From NCBI RefSeq assembly GCF_016863395.1, contig NZ_BOOU01000053.1, positions 62,001-126,000 of the forward strand: a DNA stretch of 64,000 nucleotides, read 5' to 3'. The stretch is from Sphaerisporangium rufum. GTDB taxonomy: Bacteria; Actinomycetota; Actinomycetes; Streptosporangiales; Streptosporangiaceae. Under the pieces are notes generated by a model. The model was not told where the DNA came from. It made no database searches and saw nothing but the letters and a program-made list of their open reading frames with translations. Position 1 is the first letter of the stretch. Each line of letters begins with the position of its first letter. Made by a program: the position numbers and the translations under genes. Shown piece after piece: positions 2,373 to 11,917 of this stretch.

Positions 2373-3302
2373 ATGCGACTGGGCGTCCTGGACATCGGCT
2401 CCAACACGGGGCACCTACTGGTGGTCGACGCGCATCCCGGTGCCCGGCCGCTGCCGGCCTATTCGCACAAGGCCGAGCTGCGGCTCGCCGAGGCCCTCGA
2501 TGGTGACCGGCTGTCGGCCGGCGGCCAGGCCGCGCTGCTGCGGTTCGTCGAGGAGTCGCTGCGCGTCGCCGAGGACAAGGGCGTGCAGGACGTCATGGCG
2601 TTCGCCACCTCCGCGGTGCGCGAGGCCGTCGACGGCGAGGAGGTGCTGGCCGCCATCCGGGCCGCGACCGGGGTGGACATCCGGGTGCTGCCCGGTGCGG
2701 AGGAGGCCCGGTTGACCTTCCTGGCGGTGCGACGCTGGTTCGGCTGGTCGTCCGGGCGGCTGCTGGTGATGGACATCGGCGGCGGCTCGCTGGAGATCGC
2801 CGCCGGTCTGGAGGAGGCCCCGGACGTCGCGGTCTCGCTGCCGCTGGGCGCCGGCCGGCTGACCCGCGAGTGGCTCACCGGCGACCCGCCGCCTCCCGGG
2901 CAGGTGCGCGAGCTGCGCAGGATGGTGCGCGCCGAGATCGGCCGGGTCGTCGGGGACGTGGTCCGCGGCGGGCGGCCCGACCACGCGGTCGCCACCTCCA
3001 AGACCTTCCGGCAGCTGGCCCGGATCGCCGGCGCCGCCCCGTCCGCGGAGGGGCCTTACGTCCGGCGGTCGCTGTCCCGGGCGGACCTGGCGGGCTGGGC
3101 CGAGCGCCTGCCGGGGATGCCGGCCGCCGAGCGCGCGGCACTGCCCGGCGTCTCCGCGGGCCGGGCGCCCCAGCTGGCCGCGGGCGCACTGGTCGCGGAC
3201 GCGGCGATGGACCTGTTCGACGTCGACCGGCTGGAGATCTGCCCGTGGGCGTTGCGGGAGGGGGTGATCCTGCGCCGCCTCGACATGATGTCGGCGGGGT
3301 AA
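2373..3302 (+). CDS. Ppx/GppA family phosphatase
   Basis: 309 aa member of the exopolyphosphatase/guanosine pentaphosphate phosphohydrolase family (ASKHA fold), which removes terminal phosphates from polyphosphate or pppGpp. Phosphate-binding loops are clear: [13 protein letters not shown] at the N-terminus and [10 protein letters not shown] near residue 133. The length corresponds to the short actinobacterial form (Ppx1/Ppx2 type, catalytic domains only, no C-terminal HD-like domain). A TAGCGT -10 box at 2361-2366 sits 6 nt before the ATG, so the transcript is probably leaderless. Confidence 0.85.
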
Positions 3303-4395: not shown

Positions 4396-5763
4396 TCAGT
4401 GCGGCGGCGCGGCCGGGACGCGGTGCTCGGCCAGCCGGGCGAGCACCGCCTGGTTGGCCTCCCAGCCGTCCGGGAACTTGACCGGGACGCCGAGCCGGAC
4501 CGCGTCCGCCGACGGGTGGGCGTCCAGCAGCTCGGGGATCCCGGCCCGGGCCACCACGACGCAGGCGTGCCGATGCCGCGAGGTAAGGACGCACAGCCGG
4601 CCCGACTCCAGGTGGAACGCGGTGGCGTCCCGGCGCCCGGACAGCGGATGCAGCACGATGGTGACGTCGTACTCGCGGCCCTGTAGCCGGTTGGCGGTGT
4701 CCACCGTGACGCCGGCGGGCAGCCCGGCGGCCCGGATCGCGGCCACCTGGTCACGGTGCGCGGCGCCGACGGCGACCCGCTCGGCGGTGACCGGATGCTC
4801 GCCGCGCTCGGAGACGGTGACCGGCGAGCGCTGCAGCAGCCGGGTGGCCAGCACCGCGACGGCGCGCACCGCCTCGGCGTCGGTGCGCACGGTGTGCCGG
4901 TCCGGCAGCTCGTACAGCGCCCAGCCGGACGCGGCCGCCTCCTCCAGCGCCCGGTCGTAGGCGGTGCGCATGCCGCCGGTCGCGAACCCCATCCGCCGCT
5001 CCTCGGGCCCGGTGCCGGCCCGGAATCCGGTGAACGGGTAGAACGCCTCCGACACCAGCGGCGCCGCGGACGCGGGCAGCCGCCAGGAGACGGGCAGGCG
5101 ATGCACCGGCAGGTCGGGATTGTGGCGCAGCAGCACCGCGACCGCGCTCTGCAGTGGATCCCACGACAGGCCGGCCCACCGGTCGCCGTCCACCACCGAG
5201 AACGGGTCGAGCTGGCCGGGGTCGCCGACGAACAGCGCCCGCTCGAACAGCCCGGCGATGCGCAGCAGCTTGTCCGAGCGCATCTGGTAGGCCTCGTCCA
5301 CGATCGCCCACGGCCACACCCGGTCGCCGACCCAGGCCCACTTGTCGGCGGTCGCGATCACCACGTCCGGGTCGCCGAGATCGGCGAGCCGGGTGCCGAT
5401 GGCCGCCCGGCCGGTCACCCGGGCCGGCGCGGTGTAGTCGCCCGCCGACAACCGCCCCAGGCGCAGCGCGGGGTGCGCGGCGGCGAGCCGGACGATCAGG
5501 TCGTCCACCTGCTCGTTCGTCTGCGCGATGATCATCAGGGGTTCGCCGCCCGCGGCCAGGTGCCCGGCGGCGCGCACCACCAGCGTCGACTTGCCGGCGC
5601 CCGGCGGGGAGTCGACGACCACGCCGCGGTGGCGGGGCAGGTCGGCGAGCACCGCGTCCACGACCGCGCCGGCCTCCGCCGCGGGGGACAGGCCCGCCGG
5701 CCCGGCGGCGCCGGTGGCCGGCACGGCCACCGCTCCGGACCGCCGGCCGCCGGTGCGGGTCAT
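4396..5763 (-). CDS. SF1B (DNA2/Upf1-like) helicase, split-Dna2 subunit
   Basis: 455 aa superfamily 1 helicase core. In order: motif I SPPGAGKST (52-60), Ia AQTNEQVD (80-87), II DEAYQ (156-160), III GDPGQLDP (180-187), IV SWRL (226-229), V TANRLQGREYDVTIV (356-370) and VI LTSRHRHACVV (from 393). The Q before motif VI and the DEAY/DEA box resemble the AAA_11/AAA_12 DNA2-Upf1 group rather than UvrD/Rep. It lacks the usual N-terminal stalk and beta-barrel of that group. The ATG at 5763 overlaps the TGA of the upstream 489-aa gene (ATGA), so the two are translationally coupled, and the missing N-terminal part is plausibly supplied by that protein. Predicted role: ATP-driven DNA translocase working with the operon nuclease in repair or defence. 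Confidence 0.8.
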   Translation of the reverse strand: MTRTGGRRSGAVAVPATGAAGPAGLSPAAEAGAVVDAVLADLPRHRGVVVDSPPGAGKSTLVVRAAGHLAAGGEPLMIIAQTNEQVDDLIVRLAAAHPALRLGRLSAGDYTAPARVTGRAAIGTRLADLGDPDVVIATADKWAWVGDRVWPWAIVDEAYQMRSDKLLRIAGLFERALFVGDPGQLDPFSVVDGDRWAGLSWDPLQSAVAVLLRHNPDLPVHRLPVSWRLPASAAPLVSEAFYPFTGFRAGTGPEERRMGFATGGMRTAYDRALEEAAASGWALYELPDRHTVRTDAEAVRAVAVLATRLLQRSPVTVSERGEHPVTAERVAVGAAHRDQVAAIRAAGLPAGVTVDTANRLQGREYDVTIVLHPLSGRRDATAFHLESGRLCVLTSRHRHACVVVARAGIPELLDAHPSADAVRLGVPVKFPDGWEANQAVLARLAEHRVPAAPPH

Positions 5764-7229
5764 GACCAGTCCTCCTCGGCGTCGTCCTCGGCCGGCACGT
5801 ATTCGGGCGGCGGGCCGCCGTGCGTCCACGGTGTCTCCTCCGGCGCGGGCAGCGCGGCCGGCGGCTGGTACTCGTCGGTGAGCGCCGCGTAGCACACCAC
5901 CTCACCGACCTGCGGGACCGCGCCCGGCGTGGCCGTCGTCCCGCGCCCCATCCCCTTGACGATCTTCAGGGTGACCTCGCCGCCCGCGACGTCGACGACG
6001 TCGGCCCGCTGGCCGCGCCGGGCCGGCGTGGCGAGCCGCGCCCCGGCCGCCAGCCGCACCGGATCGCCGGTGCGCACCACCAGCAGCGGCCGGAGCTTGC
6101 GGCCCCGTCCCTCGCCCTCGGTGCGGTCCGGCTCGGCGGCGACCACGGTCCCGGTGAACGCCTCGCCGGCCAGCCGGTGGCCCGCCATCACCAGCGGATC
6201 GTCGAAGGCCCGCTGCGCGTCGTACACCGCCCGGGCCCGCTCCATCCGCGCCAGCCGGGCCGCGGCGGCCACCGCGCCGTCCCGCCGAGGCTGCGGCGGC
6301 GCGCCCTCGGCGAGCTGCGCCGCGAACGCGGTGAACGCGGTACGGTCCCCCTCCCAACGGGCCGCGGCCCCGCCGCCGGGCGGCAGGGCCCGCAGCAGAT
6401 CGACCGCCCGCCACATCAGCCGCCAGGTCGGCTCCAGCTGGGAGCGGACCGCCGCGGCCACCGCGGCCGCCGCCCGCTCGCCGGGTGCCTCCTGGTAGGC
6501 GCGGATCGCCGGGGCGAGCACCTCGGCGTCGAACCCCGGGTCGGTGGCCGGCCCCGCGGGCGGCCAGACCAGCGGGTCCTCCGCCTCGCGGGCCGCGCTC
6601 GCGCCGCTCATGCCGGGCGGCGGGTCGATCCAGCCCAGCAGCGACGCCAGGTTGGCGTCCTCCAGGGCGCTCTGCCCGGTGGCCCAGTGCAGCGAGAGCA
6701 GGTCGGTGGCCGCGGCCAGCAGCACCGACCCCGGATACTGCGCCCGCCGGCCGAAGAAGGTGAGCCACCGGCCGAGCACCGGCACCGAGGGGTGCACCGC
6801 GTACGGTCCCTCGGCGCGGCGGAAGCGGGTGGACCTGCCGAGCAGCTGGACGAACGTGACCCCCGCCGGGTTCGGGACGAGCAGCTGCGGGGCGTCCACG
6901 CACCGCTCGTATGGTTCGGCGCCGCGCCGCTCCACCGTCTCGGTGGCCTTCTGCAGGCCCTCCACGTACGGCAGCACGACCTCGGCCAGCTCGGCGGTGA
7001 AGGCGAACCGCAGGTCGCGGTCGCGCGGCTGCGGCACCACCAGCAGCCGGGGATGATCGGGATCGGTGCCGGCCATCGCGGCCAGCGGGGCCGCCGCCTC
7101 GCCGGCCAGCCGCAGCGGGATGAGGACCATCGGCCGGTCGGACAGGTGGCAGTGGCGCACGGTCGCCAGCCGCTGCGCGCGGCCCTCCCGCAGCGCGCGC
7201 AGCCGGGCGAGCGCCGACAGGGTGCTCAC
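5760..7229 (-). CDS. Uncharacterised 489-aa protein linking nuclease and helicase
   Basis: No family is recognised. The start is GTG at 7229 overlapping the upstream nuclease stop (GTGA); its own stop overlaps the helicase ATG. The first two thirds are mixed alpha/beta with few motifs. From about residue 357 a run of short beta-like segments (GTVVAAEP, RPLLVVRTGDPVRL, ADVVDVAGGEVTLKIV, PQVGEVVCY) resembles the small beta-barrel (domain 1B) that lies between nuclease and motor in DNA2/Upf1 helicases. This is my reading of pattern, not an alignment. Gene order and tight coupling suggest it is a structural subunit of one nuclease-helicase machine. Acidic C-terminus EDDAEEDWS. Confidence 0.65.
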   Translation of the reverse strand: MSTLSALARLRALREGRAQRLATVRHCHLSDRPMVLIPLRLAGEAAAPLAAMAGTDPDHPRLLVVPQPRDRDLRFAFTAELAEVVLPYVEGLQKATETVERRGAEPYERCVDAPQLLVPNPAGVTFVQLLGRSTRFRRAEGPYAVHPSVPVLGRWLTFFGRRAQYPGSVLLAAATDLLSLHWATGQSALEDANLASLLGWIDPPPGMSGASAAREAEDPLVWPPAGPATDPGFDAEVLAPAIRAYQEAPGERAAAAVAAAVRSQLEPTWRLMWRAVDLLRALPPGGGAAARWEGDRTAFTAFAAQLAEGAPPQPRRDGAVAAAARLARMERARAVYDAQRAFDDPLVMAGHRLAGEAFTGTVVAAEPDRTEGEGRGRKLRPLLVVRTGDPVRLAAGARLATPARRGQRADVVDVAGGEVTLKIVKGMGRGTTATPGAVPQVGEVVCYAALTDEYQPPAALPAPEETPWTHGGPPPEYVPAEDDAEEDWS

Positions 7230-8335
7230 GAGACCTCGGCGTACAGGCGGTCGGCCAGGCGGAGCAGCCGGGCGATCTCCGCGCGATCGTCGTCGGGCGC
7301 GAGCGAGCCGTCGGCCAGGGCGAGCGCCTCGGCGACCGTGGCGACCCCGCCGAGCTCGTCGCGGACCTGCCGGCCCAGCAGGTCGGTCGCGCCGGCCTCG
7401 GCCGCCTCCTCCCGGCAGAAGAAGCACAGGTCACAGGTGTTGAGGCAGTCCGGGGCGTAGCGGGCGCCGACCTCGCGCACCGCCGAGCGCAGCTCGGCCA
7501 CCGGGCGCCGCGGCACGCCGCCGTCGTCCCGGCCCAGGTCGAACGTCAGCGTGTCCGGCAGCGGCTCGACGATGGCGCCGACCCGGGTCATCCGGGCGAG
7601 CTGCCGGCGCAGCACCGCCAGCTCGCGGCGTACGTCCACCAGCGTGGCCGCCGGGCGGTTGGCGAAGTTCTCCGGGCAGACCAGGACGATCTCGTGCGAC
7701 ACCCGCGACGGGTCGTGGCCGAGCTCGGCCAGCAGCGTGCTCAGCGCCAGCACGTACACCGCGGCCTGGCGGGCGGCGGCGGCCACCTTGTCCGGCTCGG
7801 CCTGCCCGTCCACCACGGCGAACGACTTGATCTCCACGATGTGGAACCGGCCGCCCAGCTGGAACGCCACCACGTCCGGCTCCAGGTAGGAGTGGTACCC
7901 GGCGATCTCCAGCCGCAGCAGCGGATGGTCGTACAGGGTGGCCGCCTCGCCGGCGTCCCGCGCGGCGCGGTCGATGAGCCGCCGGGTGTGGGAGTGGCGC
8001 AGGTGCGCCGACGGGTTGCCGCCCACGTCGGCCAGGTCGGTGTAGCCGGCCAGCGGCAGCGGCAGCCCGAGCAGCTCGCGCAGCAGCCGCAGCAGCTCCG
8101 CGCCGCCGCCCTCCTTGACCAGCGCCTCGAAGGCGTCGCCGCGGGTGATGGCGAACGGCGACCGGCCGAAGGGCGCGGGGAAACCCAGGTGGGTGGCGAC
8201 GGCGTCCTTGTCCACGCCGGCGGCGTCCAGCACGGCACGGCGGGCGCACCCCGGGTTGGCCGCGAGGGCGGCGATGGCGCGGGCGTCGTGCGGGCGCGGC
8301 GGCTCCGGCCCGCGCAGCCGGTCGAGTCGATCCAC
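7226..8335 (-). CDS. Cas4/AddB-like Fe-S PD-(D/E)XK nuclease
   Basis: 369 aa. The nuclease core is readable: D154 (LEPDVVAF), E168-x-K170 (HIVEIKSF) and the RecB-family QxxxY motif Q190/Y194. Four cysteines sit as in Fe-S nucleases of the Cas4, AddB and Dna2 type: C30 near the N-terminus (NPGC) and C297, C301, C304, C307 in DCLNTCDLCFFC near the end, giving one spare ligand candidate. An early RGDAFE motif (65-70) corresponds to the first helix of RecB-like nucleases. Start GTG 8335 follows GAGAGG. It is second in a four-gene operon and overlaps the next gene by 4 nt. Predicted DNA end- or flap-processing nuclease partner of the helicase encoded two genes downstream. Confidence 0.8.
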   Translation of the reverse strand: MDRLDRLRGPEPPRPHDARAIAALAANPGCARRAVLDAAGVDKDAVATHLGFPAPFGRSPFAITRGDAFEALVKEGGGAELLRLLRELLGLPLPLAGYTDLADVGGNPSAHLRHSHTRRLIDRAARDAGEAATLYDHPLLRLEIAGYHSYLEPDVVAFQLGGRFHIVEIKSFAVVDGQAEPDKVAAAARQAAVYVLALSTLLAELGHDPSRVSHEIVLVCPENFANRPAATLVDVRRELAVLRRQLARMTRVGAIVEPLPDTLTFDLGRDDGGVPRRPVAELRSAVREVGARYAPDCLNTCDLCFFCREEAAEAGATDLLGRQVRDELGGVATVAEALALADGSLAPDDDRAEIARLLRLADRLYAEVS

Positions 8336-8401
8336 CTCACACCTCTCTCTCGTCCGCCGGGCGCGGCCGGGCGCGGGGCCGGCCCCGGGATGGGGCCGGG
8401 C

Positions 8402-9229
8402 TCAGCACGAGGCCTCCGCCAGGCCCAGCGGCAGGCCGCCGAACAGGCGCTCGGCGTCGCCCAGCCGCGCGCGGGCACGACCGGCGATGTCCGCCCGGGC
8501 CGCGGCGTCGGCCGCCGCGTGCACCCGCAGCTCGGCGTGGGCCGCCTTGACCACGGTGCGCGGATCCGGCGCGGCCGGGACACCCGGACGGCCGGGGCCG
8601 CCGGTCGCGCCAGGGACGTTGCGGGCCAGCCGGGCCAGCAGCCGCTCGGCACCCGGCGCGGCGGGCTCGCCCGCCTCGGCCAGCCGCAGCACGTGCTCGG
8701 CGACGCGCACCGCCGTGGTGAGGAAGTCGACCCGCGGGCTCAGCGGGCCGACCACCCGGCGTTCCAGCGGCCAGGTGCTCACCGCGAACAGCCCGCGCGA
8801 GGCCGACAGGCGATCGGTGAGCGCGGCGCACAGGTAGTAGGGGCGGGCGTAGGGCGCGCCGCGGAAGGACCGTTCCTCGTCCCGGCGCAGGCTGGCCAGC
8901 CGGCCGCCGCCCAACGAACCGGCGTGCAGCGCGGCGTGCACCGCCACGATCATCCGCGCGGCCGCGGGTGCCCCGATCAGGGTGAGCGCCTGGTGCACCT
9001 GCTCGCGGACCGGCAGCAGCGAGGCCGGCTCGCCGGCCCGCTCGGTGGTCCCGGCCGCGGGGTCGGCGGCCTCCGGCCCGGCCACGGCCCGGTCCCACGC
9101 CCGTTCGGCGCCGCGCAGCTCGGCGCGCAGCTCGCGCGCCAGCGCGCCGTCCCGGGCTCGCACGGCCCGCCGGATCTCCCCGCGCAGCGCGCTGATCCGC
9201 GCCTCCAGGGCGTCCAGCGTCTCGCTCAC
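8402..9229 (-). CDS. Uncharacterised 275-aa protein, first gene of nuclease-helicase operon
   Basis: No family recognised. Residues 2-48 are a charged heptad-like helix (predicted coiled coil). The middle part, from REQVHQALTLIGAPAAARMI to GRLASLRRDEERSF, has the spacing of a winged helix-turn-helix with an arginine-rich recognition helix, so DNA binding or targeting is a reasonable guess. The C-terminal third is alanine-rich helix. I choose GTG 9229 (SETLDALEAR follows); an upstream in-frame ATG at 9277 would add 16 residues but has poor composition for coding. It is separated from the nuclease gene by 66 bp, so probably cotranscribed. Confidence 0.6.
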   Translation of the reverse strand: MSETLDALEARISALRGEIRRAVRARDGALARELRAELRGAERAWDRAVAGPEAADPAAGTTERAGEPASLLPVREQVHQALTLIGAPAAARMIVAVHAALHAGSLGGGRLASLRRDEERSFRGAPYARPYYLCAALTDRLSASRGLFAVSTWPLERRVVGPLSPRVDFLTTAVRVAEHVLRLAEAGEPAAPGAERLLARLARNVPGATGGPGRPGVPAAPDPRTVVKAAHAELRVHAAADAAARADIAGRARARLGDAERLFGGLPLGLAEASC

Positions 9230-9524
9230 GCCCGGAGCGTACCAGTGGTTCCCTCCGGTTCCAGAGATTTCCAGCATTCACCCGCGTGCCATCCGCCCCG
9301 GCGGGCCCGACCGCACCTGCGGACGGCTCCCGCCCGCGGGACGCGGGGGGACACGGCCGCCCGGCTCCGGCGCGGCGGACCCGGTGGCGGATCCGGTGGC
9401 GGCGTCCGGGCGGCCGGGCACCCGGCGGTCATCATCCGGCGTCACCATCCGGGCCGCCGGCCGCGGCGGTCCCGGCCCGCCCGACAGCGGTACGTGACCG
9501 CGAAGTACCCCTATGCTGTCCGTC
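9230..9524. promoter_or_regulatory. Divergent promoter region, nuclease operon / TetR
   Basis: About 295 bp with no gene. On the TetR side a TATGCT -10 box at 9512-9517 lies 7 nt before ATG 9525. The inverted repeat GGTAC (9489-9493) ... GTACC (9505-9509) with an 11-bp spacer overlaps this promoter and may be the TetR autoregulatory site. I see no equally clear promoter for the leftward operon. Confidence 0.4.
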
Positions 9525-10172
9525 ATGGCGACCCTGGCGGGGAACGACGGGCGTGATCCGGACCGGCGCCGGGTGCTGCTCGACGCGGCCGACCGCGTGA
9601 TCCTCCGCGAGGGACCGCAGGCGTCCATGGCGGCCATCGCCGCGGAGGCGGGCATCACCAAGCCCATCCTCTACCGCCATTTCGGCGACAAGAGCGGCCT
9701 GTACCAGGCGCTGGCCGACCGGCACATCCGCACGGTCGTCCGTGAGCTGCGGCAGCGGTTCGCCGGCACCGGCGCCGGCCCGCGCACCCGGGCCGAGGCC
9801 ACCATCGAGACCTACCTGGACATGATCTCGGCCAACCGCAACCTCTACCGCTTCCTGTTCCACCGCGCCGGCGCCGAGGACAGCAGGACGCATTCGCACA
9901 TGGCCGCCATCGTGCGCAGCCTGGGGGAGGAACTCGGCGCCGTCATCGCCGGCGACGGCGCCGACCCCGTCCGCGCGCAGATCCTCGGCCACGCCTTCGT
10001 CGGCATGGTGCACACCACCGGCGACTGGTGGCTGGAGCATCGCGAGGTCGACCGCCGCCGGGTCGTCGGCACCCTCGCCGACGTCATCACCGCCGCCATG
10101 GCCGCCCCCATCACGCCTGACGATGTTCGGCATCCTGGATTTCCGGCAGTGGACACGGGTGCTGGACGGTGA
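9525..10172 (+). CDS. TetR/AcrR family regulator
   Basis: 215 aa one-component repressor. Helix-turn-helix: RRRVLLDAADRVILREG followed by SMAAIAAEAGITKPILYRHF, the usual TetR signature, then a helical ligand-binding domain (about 70-200). The ATG at 9525 is preferred over one four codons upstream because a TATGCT -10 box lies 7 nt before it. It is divergent from the nuclease-helicase operon and convergent with the symporter operon, so either could be its target, in addition to its own promoter. Confidence 0.85.
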   Translation: MATLAGNDGRDPDRRRVLLDAADRVILREGPQASMAAIAAEAGITKPILYRHFGDKSGLYQALADRHIRTVVRELRQRFAGTGAGPRTRAEATIETYLDMISANRNLYRFLFHRAGAEDSRTHSHMAAIVRSLGEELGAVIAGDGADPVRAQILGHAFVGMVHTTGDWWLEHREVDRRRVVGTLADVITAAMAAPITPDDVRHPGFPAVDTGAGR

Positions 10173-10309: not shown

Positions 10310-11917
10310 TCAGTGGGAGCCGGAGAGTTCGATCTCGTGGACGCGGGGGTCGCCCTCGTCGGCGGTGTAGTCCGACGGCCGGGTGCCGTCGGGGCCGTCG
10401 GCCAGCCTGCCGGCCCGGGCGATCAGGGTGCCGGCGGCCGCGACGGCCAGGTTGACGATCAGGGCCAGGAAGCCGGCGTAGATCGTCATCTTGGTGTCCA
10501 GGCCGAGCTGGGACAGCGGGAACGCCGAGCCGCCGAAGTGGGCGTGGTTGATCGCCGGGTTGGCGATGTTGTAGAGCAGGATCATGCCGGCGGCCATGCC
10601 CGCGACCAGGCCGGCGATCAGTCCCGCCCGGTGGAACCAGCGGGTGAACAGCCCGAGGGCCACCGCGGGCAGGGTCTGCAGGATGATCACGCCGCCGATG
10701 AGCTGCAGGTCGATGGAGAACTGCGGGTCGATCATCAGGATCACCGCGACCGCCCCCACCTTCACCACCAGGGACGCGATCTTGCTGACCGCGGCCTCCT
10801 GGGCGTCGGTGGCGTCCGGCTTGAAGTACTCGCGGTAGATGTTGCGGGTGAACAGGTTGGCCGCGGCGATGGACATGATCGCCGCGGGCACCAGGGCGCC
10901 GATGCCGACCGCGGCGTAGGCGACGCCGGCCAGCCAGTCGGGGAACATCTTGTCGAACAGCAGCGGCACCACCGTGTTGGCGTCGGCCTTGCCGCCGGAG
11001 GTGATCGGCTTGACGCCCGCCGCGATCGCCATGTAGCCGAGCAGGGCGATCAGGCCGAGCAGCAGGCTGTAGGCGGGCAGCGCGGCCATGTTCCGCTTGA
11101 CCACGCCCCGGTTGCGCGCGGCGAGCACGCCGGTGACGCTGTGCGGGTAGAGGAACAGCGCCATGGCCGAGCCGAGCGCCAGGGTGATGTACTGCAGCTG
11201 GTTGTTCGGGTTGAGCAGGATGCCGTCGCCCGGTGCCGGTGTGGCGTCGAACTTGGCCTTGGCCGCGTCGAAGATCGAGCCCCAGCCGCCGAGCTTCGCC
11301 GGGATGTAGATCACCGCCACCAGGATGATCAGGTAGATCAGCGAGTCCTTGACGAAGGCGATGAGCGCCGGGGCGCGCAGTCCGGACTGGTAGGTGTAGG
11401 CGGCCAGGATCGCGAACGCGATGATCAGCGGCAGGTCGCCGGTGACGCCCATCGTCTTCAGCACGGCCTCGATGCCGACCAGCTGCAGGGCGATGTACGG
11501 CATGGTCGCCACCAGGCCGGTGATCGCGACCAGCAGGGCGAGGGTGGGCGAGCCGAACCGCACCCGGACGAAGTCGGCCGGGGTGACCAGGTTGTGCACG
11601 TGCGACACCGACCAGAGCCGGATCAGCACCAGGAACACCAGGGGGTAGGTGATGATGGTGTAGGGCAGCGCGAAGAAGCCCATCGCGCCGGCGCCGAACA
11701 GCAGCGCGGGCACCGCGACGAAGGTGTAGGCGGTGTAGAGGTCGCCGCCGACCAGGAACCAGGTGACCCACGAGCCGAACTTGCGCCCGCCGAGCCCCCA
11801 CTCGTGCAGGCTCGCCAGGTCGTCGGGGCGGCGCCACCGGGCGGCCACGAAGCCCATGCCGCTCACGACCAGGAACAGGATCGTGAAGACGACGATCTCG
11901 GTGATGTGCTCGCTCAT
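10310..11917 (-). CDS. Sodium:solute symporter (SSS family, monocarboxylate type)
   Basis: 535 aa integral membrane protein with about 13-14 hydrophobic helices, typical of SSS transporters of the ActP/MctP/PutP group, which import acetate, lactate, pyruvate or related solutes with sodium or protons. The N-terminus (SEHITEIVVFTILFLVV), the helix-3 region WSVSHVHNLVTPADFVRVRFG and the paired small upstream DUF3311 protein match the actinobacterial monocarboxylate permeases. The ATG at 11917 overlaps the stop of the DUF3311 gene (ATGA), so the two are translated together. A cytoplasmic tail of about 30 charged residues ends the protein. The exact substrate cannot be read from sequence. Confidence 0.85.
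   Translation of the reverse strand: MSEHITEIVVFTILFLVVSGMGFVAARWRRPDDLASLHEWGLGGRKFGSWVTWFLVGGDLYTAYTFVAVPALLFGAGAMGFFALPYTIITYPLVFLVLIRLWSVSHVHNLVTPADFVRVRFGSPTLALLVAITGLVATMPYIALQLVGIEAVLKTMGVTGDLPLIIAFAILAAYTYQSGLRAPALIAFVKDSLIYLIILVAVIYIPAKLGGWGSIFDAAKAKFDATPAPGDGILLNPNNQLQYITLALGSAMALFLYPHSVTGVLAARNRGVVKRNMAALPAYSLLLGLIALLGYMAIAAGVKPITSGGKADANTVVPLLFDKMFPDWLAGVAYAAVGIGALVPAAIMSIAAANLFTRNIYREYFKPDATDAQEAAVSKIASLVVKVGAVAVILMIDPQFSIDLQLIGGVIILQTLPAVALGLFTRWFHRAGLIAGLVAGMAAGMILLYNIANPAINHAHFGGSAFPLSQLGLDTKMTIYAGFLALIVNLAVAAAGTLIARAGRLADGPDGTRPSDYTADEGDPRVHEIELSGSH

Follow-up and report, generated by a model that had tools for sequence, protein, structure and literature searches.

Bad, the bacterial DNA2-like helicase-nuclease of Geobacillus, is a 5'-3' translocase on single-stranded DNA and a single-strand endonuclease that prefers 5'-flap or 5'-overhang substrates, and its domain order is a nuclease, a central domain of unknown homology and a superfamily 1B (SF1B) motor (PMC7430649). 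The same account places the Bad gene next to a type III-like methyltransferase gene, from which a restriction role was proposed there, and describes an iron-staple nuclease signature for AddB, DNA2, Cas4 and Bad (PMC7430649). Here we consider a four-gene operon, Q1-Q2-Q3-Q4, in a 64,000-nucleotide stretch of the Sphaerisporangium rufum genome (contig NZ_BOOU01000053.1, positions 62,001 to 126,000; the whole stretch is called the window). The order of its last three genes is that of the Bad domains, with Q3 comparable to the central domain by position only. It is probable, in our view, that Q2, Q3 and Q4 make up one split-chain Dna2/Bad-like helicase-nuclease for DNA ends, which would be a core function in the window's genome and would have been recruited to defence elsewhere. 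What is new is that the operon exists in two forms, as core chromosomal copies and as accessory copies beside defence genes.

The four genes run head to tail on the minus strand at 4396-9229 of the window. Q1 (8402-9229, GTG start) encodes a 275-residue accessory subunit without a family match, Q2 (7226-8335, GTG start) a 369-residue putative iron-sulfur (Fe-S), iron-staple-like PD-(D/E)XK nuclease, so named on the basis of residue conservation, Q3 (5760-7229, GTG start) a 489-residue proposed bridging subunit with a conserved PWTHGGPP near its C terminus, and Q4 (4396-5763, ATG start) a 455-residue SF1B helicase core of the UPF1/SMUBP2/DNA2 type. A 66-bp gap separates Q1 from Q2, and Q2/Q3 and Q3/Q4 overlap by GTGA and ATGA, respectively. 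An earlier, sequence-only reading of this DNA had given the genes, their order, the gap and the overlaps in the same way, and the residues that it named lie at the codons that it named. GC per codon position across the four genes is 0.80-0.85 / 0.50-0.62 / 0.95-0.98, the pattern of real genes for such a genome, and a search with Q3 found a single copy in the window's own genome.

The case for one machine begins with gene order among 80 named relatives (loci are denoted by L and genomes by G) that were kept from 443 candidate stretches. All four genes are present, in order and on one strand, in 71 of the 80, and the nine exceptions are seven Micromonospora loci with Q2 and Q3 only (L087, L091, L096, L098, L099, L101, L107) and two loci at contig ends (L078, L086). 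Every one of the seven split Micromonospora genomes has Q4 elsewhere: four have it on the same contig, at a distance of ~30-76 kb, and three on a different contig. Q1 was found in only two of the seven (G792, G796), each of which has a second, accessory Q4. In L208, Q3 and Q4 are fused in one open frame. The association extends to a genome from another class of the phylum (G762, L223), in which far-diverged Q2, Q3 and Q4 (E 8.5e-21, 2.9e-19 and 5.2e-64) are adjacent on one strand and Q2 keeps its cysteines, and all four also occur in the divergent operon L160. With the window's own genome counted in each case, Q2 was matched in 10/198 genomes drawn from the phylum and Q3 in 48/296 drawn from the class. 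The sequence-only reading had proposed one machine of separate subunits, to be judged by gene order across actinobacterial genomes; homologues do co-occur, and the proposal is well supported by the 71/80 order, the 7/7 co-retention when the genes are split, the Q3-Q4 fusion and the divergent trio in another class. As a separate observation, three loci have another gene between Q3 and Q4: a GmrSD_N (PF03235) gene in L072 (9622-11919), an unrelated gene, RhuM-like by eye, in L073 (9746-10555) and an opposite-strand gene, alpha/beta-hydrolase-like by eye, in L031 (9534-10877).

Q4 is the only protein of the operon with domain matches above cut-off (AAA_11, 4.4e-7; AAA_30, 1.1e-6); partial motor-core matches, e.g., PLuB_AAA at 9e-13, fell below cut-off. 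Searched with hmmsearch against solved structures, its profile found SMUBP2 (1.7e-11), DNA2 (5eax, 1.7e-8) and UPF1 (4e-5), and hhalign gave 93-99% (best 99.1%) against four TIGR00376-like helicases, a comparison that served as positive control. Ten motor residues (G57, K58, D156, E157, D181, Q184, R228, Q361, G362 and R396) are invariant in four sets of Q4 sequences (72/72, 19/19, 10/10 and 19/19), among them the Walker A lysine K58, whose codon is at 5590-5592 on the minus strand. The identification of Q4 as an SF1B helicase core, already made from the sequence alone, is thus upheld by both its structural relatives and its motif residues.

For Q2 the argument is one of residues. In an alignment of 160 rows, 159 of them distinct (the window protein appears twice), C297, C301 and C307 are invariant (160/160) and C30 is kept in 159; D154 is kept in 154, E168 and K170 in 150 each, Q190 in 158 and Y194 in 157. 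A further cysteine, C304, is poorly kept (55/160), which leaves C30/C297/C301/C307 as the likely cluster set. These four cysteines bracket a D...ExK...QxxxY nuclease motif, and the last three are spaced C-x3-C-x5-C (codons 297-307, 7415-7447, minus strand); the predicted catalytic residues D154, E168 and K170 lie within codons 154-170 (7826-7876, minus strand). It is because this pattern resembles the iron-staple nuclease signature of AddB, DNA2, Cas4 and Bad (PMC7430649) that we call Q2 a putative nuclease. Neither Q2 nor Q3 has a match up to E 1 in Pfam, PADLOC, NCBIfam or PHROGs. When the Q2 profile was compared with PD-(D/E)XK domains (PprPDDEXK, the UvrD-nuclease and four PF12705 domains from its own genome), nothing convincing emerged, the best probability being 8.3% with L218 (0.2% for its shuffle). 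In the PDB the Q2 profile picked up designed repeat proteins, which were set aside as repeat artefacts, and otherwise chance matches. The Fe-S PD-(D/E)XK nuclease of the sequence-only reading therefore keeps its footing in residue conservation over the 160 rows and gains none from profiles.

The Q3 profile has no relatives among solved structures and reaches at most 0.8% by hhalign against the same four TIGR00376-like SF1B helicases, and the idea that its beta-rich end is a Dna2-type barrel finds no support in sequence. Q1, which has a coiled-coil-like N terminus (by eye) and a conserved C-terminal half with LRRDEERSF and GPLS motifs, gave weak matches only, both against solved structures (best 0.06) and in Pfam, PADLOC, NCBIfam and PHROGs, where the best was ZorF3 at E 0.0012. 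We do not assign Q1 to ZorF/DUF2894, a similarity that probably reflects a coiled coil: the ZorF3 match covers residues 5-94 only, and DUF2894 scores 12.1 bits against a cut-off of 25 (ZorA/B were not searched for). The 489- and 275-residue proteins thus belong to no family found by these searches, and the earlier statement that the gene set matches no named defence system agrees with the PADLOC 2.0 and NCBIfam scans. Long frames with weak Q4 matches were also considered as single-chain relatives and discarded, L189-L192 being helicases fused to caspase-, kinase- or PLD-type parts and L194 a regulator resembling AfsR. Searches of an open-licence literature library turned up no description of this operon, which does not prove that none is in print.

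The core form is best seen in the genus set g46, which we take to be Streptomyces because the sequences of two plasmid copies named as Streptomyces fall within it, and which is called Streptomyces-like here. Q4 is present in 58/61 of its genomes. Sixteen of 20 chosen regions share common chromosomal neighbours and consist of Q2-Q3-Q4, with Q1 not found in any of the 16; the other four are second copies. Neighbours are also common within Streptosporangium/Planobispora, Nonomuraea, Actinomadura and the split Micromonospora loci. None of 19 Streptomyces-like core regions has an SbcCD, Wadjet or pPIWI-RE marker (at least 100 bits). Q1 is dispensable: strong Q1 matches occur in 23/295 Streptomyces-like genomes, as against Q4 in 58/61. 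The window copy, judged by its sequence context, is best called a core, putatively DNA-processing operon in ordinary surroundings; its neighbours, named by eye, are a Ppx/GppA-like gene (2373-3302), a TetR-like gene (9513-10172) and a transporter-like gene (10310-11917), and a phmmer search of the window frames with Jet proteins of types I and II found no Jet-like gene. A gene similar to the Ppx/GppA-like one was called in 24/80 of the related loci.

Accessory copies were collected by way of Q1. At E<=0.001, 25/295 Streptomyces-like genomes carried it, and the removal of two weak ones (G341, G348) left 23, all of which have Q1-Q2-Q3-Q4 in order and the surroundings of all of which were viewed. 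SbcCD is divergent from Q1 in 12 of these loci, a divergent pPIWI-RE island in 10, and neither is present in one (G574, L210). The Q4 survey that gave 58/61 also yielded six extra full-length Q4 copies. They belong to five genomes, each of which is one of the 23, with SbcCD linkage in three and pPIWI-RE linkage in two. The linked SbcD is evidently an extra copy, because a second, distant SbcD (30-36% identity) is found elsewhere in all 12 SbcCD-linked genomes; it is shortened in L184 (172 residues called), and SbcCD lies in pieces on plasmid L110. In other families SbcCD is downstream of Q4 (L077, L082), as is SbcD in the Micromonospora copy L241. Wadjet follows the operon in 4/12 SbcCD-linked Streptomyces-like loci, and in all, Wadjet genes stand after Q4 in seven accessory loci, of type I in L110, L111 and L199 and of type II in L170, L183, L184 and L205. 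The seven fall in one ten-row branch of the Q4 tree (100/100), within which L199 (type I) and L184 (type II) are sisters (100/99), so that the Wadjet type appears to have been exchanged behind the same operon. Other defence genes lie nearby. HmaA, the helicase of the Hma defence system, stands directly beyond Q4 of a pPIWI-RE-linked copy (L209, 13395-16619), L157 has a type IIG enzyme, and L182 and L203 have helicases of the type III res-like and SNF2 kinds. Ten neighbours were scanned, and the other eight had no match or weak and repeat-type matches only. For the anti-phage role suggested earlier for this DNA, the link to defence is a genomic association only; it concerns accessory copies, which lie in other genomes, and does not carry over to the window copy.

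Replicon position was also noted. Among single-contig chromosomes, an SbcCD-type copy lies within ~25 kb of a chromosome end in three of four (G379, G453 and G419, the last being L198). G379 (L180, L212) and G453 (L201) have a copy at each end, an arrangement like that of terminal inverted repeats; in the fourth chromosome, G434, the copy is ~524 kb from the end. A pPIWI-RE-type copy is near a chromosome end in none of four (G340, G518, G570, G585). Of the plasmid copies, L110 comes from a record annotated as circular and L111 from a linear one, and each is no more than ~16 kb from an end of its record.

The two kinds of accessory copy differ in Q2. Catalytic residues are changed in all ten pPIWI-RE-linked copies, seven of which have E168L and K170R and three D154Q, K170R and Y194S; the four cysteines are kept in 10/10, and the ten Q4 motor residues are intact. 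The same catalytic residues are intact in 19/19 SbcCD-linked copies from several genera and in 19/19 Streptomyces-like core copies. Since the ten altered copies form one clade, the loss represents one or a few events and not ten. The island encodes a PD-(D/E)XK protein of its own, in which D416, E429, K431 and C522/C525/C531 are kept in 7/7 aligned rows (these come from six of the ten genomes, G340 twice, with four genomes left out). The notion that this gene was acquired to replace a dead Q2 is weakened, and such an origin is probably not the right one, because PADLOC lists PprPDDEXK as part of the pPIWI-RE system and relatives occur in 42/295 genomes, only 10 of them with the operon adjacent.

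From the gene content, gene order, conservation, neighbours and residue losses described above we infer every activity and role that follows. Q4, to judge by its SF1B class, would move 5'-3' along single-stranded DNA, and Q2, to judge by its residue pattern, would cut the strand with an Fe-S-stabilised RecB-type nuclease. Q3 would join the two as a linking subunit, a role suggested by gene order, co-retention and the one Q3-Q4 fusion, and Q1 may be an optional adaptor or loader. After loading at a 5' single strand, the trio would unwind and trim the DNA. For the window's core, vertically inherited copy the most likely task would be DNA-end or 5' flap processing in chromosome maintenance; SbcCD-linked copies, sometimes with Wadjet, would probably degrade invading DNA once its ends had been made or opened; and pPIWI-RE-linked copies, with motor kept and nuclease residues lost, would probably serve a different nuclease as its motor or scaffold. 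A more elaborate version, which is possible and which we regard as doubtful, has a general DNA-end machine of mycelial actinomycetes turned into an immunity plug-in: SbcCD would open blocked (hairpin or protein-capped) ends, Wadjet would linearise circles and Q1-Q4 would unwind and degrade the product, covering linear and circular invaders, and the pPIWI-RE version, its nuclease dead, would be a motor for that system's own PD-(D/E)XK enzyme. On this view the copies close to linear replicon ends would hint at a tie to linear-end biology.

Several points weigh against a split-chain Dna2/Bad-like enzyme for DNA ends. Profile searches give Q2 no PD-(D/E)XK match and Q3 no barrel or scaffold relative, and the Q2 cysteine spacing, C-x3-C-x5-C, differs from that of DNA2 and AddB, which is C-x2-C-x5-C. 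The nuclease site is altered outside the pPIWI-RE clade as well (D154A in L074 and L025, D154G and E168T in L027, E168A in L176, E168Q in L021), which suggests that cutting is not always needed and that the complex can have another role. The proposed polarity and substrate are guesses; UPF1, too, is among the solved relatives of Q4. The Q3-Q4 fusion was seen once, in a draft genome. The window's own genome has four PF12705 PD-(D/E)XK matches elsewhere, two of them close together on contig C83, and for this reason a core end-processing role could be redundant. As for the accessory loci, the pPIWI-RE-linked copies are one clade (100/100) and SbcCD occupies one side of a branch among labelled rows (77/79); because associations are clustered on the Q4 tree in this way, the accessory counts are not independent events. 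Choosing loci by Q1 could have biased the neighbour counts, but the six extra full-length Q4 copies, which came from the Q4 survey, also lie in genomes of the 23.

Among the other explanations, the one that survives best holds that all copies, the core ones included, are a single anti-phage or anti-plasmid defence system whose core position reflects early fixation. The company of the accessory copies speaks for it (SbcCD, Wadjet I/II and pPIWI-RE, with HmaA, type IIG, type III res-like and SNF2 genes in single instances), as do the GmrSD_N gene of the Micromonospora locus L072 and the unrelated gene of L073 that separate Q3 from Q4. We nevertheless consider it unlikely, for the core copies have stable neighbours and are near-universal in the Streptomyces-like genus, unlike patchy defence genes, the markers sought in 19 core regions were absent from all of them, and no relative of Q3 turned up in phage records, which gave no match, or in viral contigs, where none of 15 pattern matches was a relative.

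Less likely still is that the trio is the 5'-3' arm of a machine with two motors, like RecBCD, in which the partner, a UvrD-type helicase-nuclease, is encoded nearby or elsewhere. A UvrD-PDDEXK_1 gene does adjoin the two most diverged operons, which are from different classes (L160, same strand and downstream; L223, tail to tail), the L223 protein scoring 769 bits with that of L160, and the window's own genome has the close pair of PF12705 matches in large frames on C83, which we take to be AdnAB. However, among the loci scanned only L154, L160 and L223 have such a gene (at least 100 bits), and the window copy has none beside it. That Q4 might be an RNA or RNA-DNA helicase of the UPF1/SMUBP2 kind, the set acting on R-loops or RNA, we find very improbable: SMUBP2 and UPF1 are among its solved relatives and pPIWI-RE systems have been proposed to act on DNA-RNA hybrids (PMC3702460), but the RecB-like residues seen in Q2 and the association with SbcCD and Wadjet point to DNA. 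Hardly credible, finally, is that these are neighbouring and functionally separate enzymes, as the separation of Q2-Q3 from Q4 in seven Micromonospora genomes and the absence of Q1 from many copies might indicate, in the face of 7/7 co-retention when split, overlapping genes, one fusion and a trio that stays together across classes.

We return, then, to a split-chain helicase-nuclease and to the systems it resembles. Many soil actinomycetes carry the four genes as a fixed chromosomal set, probably one DNA-unwinding and -cutting machine, and the pairings of accessory copies suggest that housekeeping DNA-end machinery has been re-used as an immune module; the pairings with SbcCD, with pPIWI-RE and with Wadjet, whose types are interchangeable, yield a testable proposal for the fate of DNA after Wadjet or pPIWI-RE has acted. 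The Wadjet systems of types I and II with SbcCD adjoin accessory loci, are a separate known system and are not near the window copy. Likewise the pPIWI-RE system (PMC3702460; PprPDDEXK/PprRE/PprDinG in PADLOC), divergent beside 10 accessory copies, is a separate one, mostly without the operon beside it. The PLuB and Mokosh helicases, with models of 1112-1256 positions, have weak similarity confined to the motor core, and Q1-Q3 have no match in them. With AddAB, AdnAB and RecBCD the operon shares a helicase-nuclease logic for DNA ends and, for AddB, the Fe-S type of nuclease; it differs in that Q4 is of SF1B (UPF1/DNA2) type and not of UvrD type, a UvrD-nuclease gene merely adjoining the L160 and L223 relatives. 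In a Pfam scan Q4 had no UvrD match and Q2 no PDDEXK_1 match, and the UvrD-type motor fused to a nuclease that marks those enzymes is thus missing.

The closest comparison is with DNA2 and Bad. That the set works like Dna2/Bad has moderate support by analogy; membership of the DNA2 family fails because of the chain architecture, nuclease and motor being in separate genes and the only fusion being that of Q3 with Q4 in L208. The Dna2 architecture seen in the sequence-only reading survives in the relation of the motor to DNA2/SMUBP2 and in the nuclease-middle-motor order, and gives way at the separate chains and at Q3, which lacks similarity to the four SF1B helicases. The four cysteines and the RecB-type catalytic residues are shared with Bad and DNA2; three chains and Q1 take the place of one chain. 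The operon is nearly fixed in one genus, whereas Bad is described as rare and sporadic, its role and central domain unknown (PMC7430649), and a near-fixed three-chain relative gives tractable hosts for bacterial Dna2-like enzymes.

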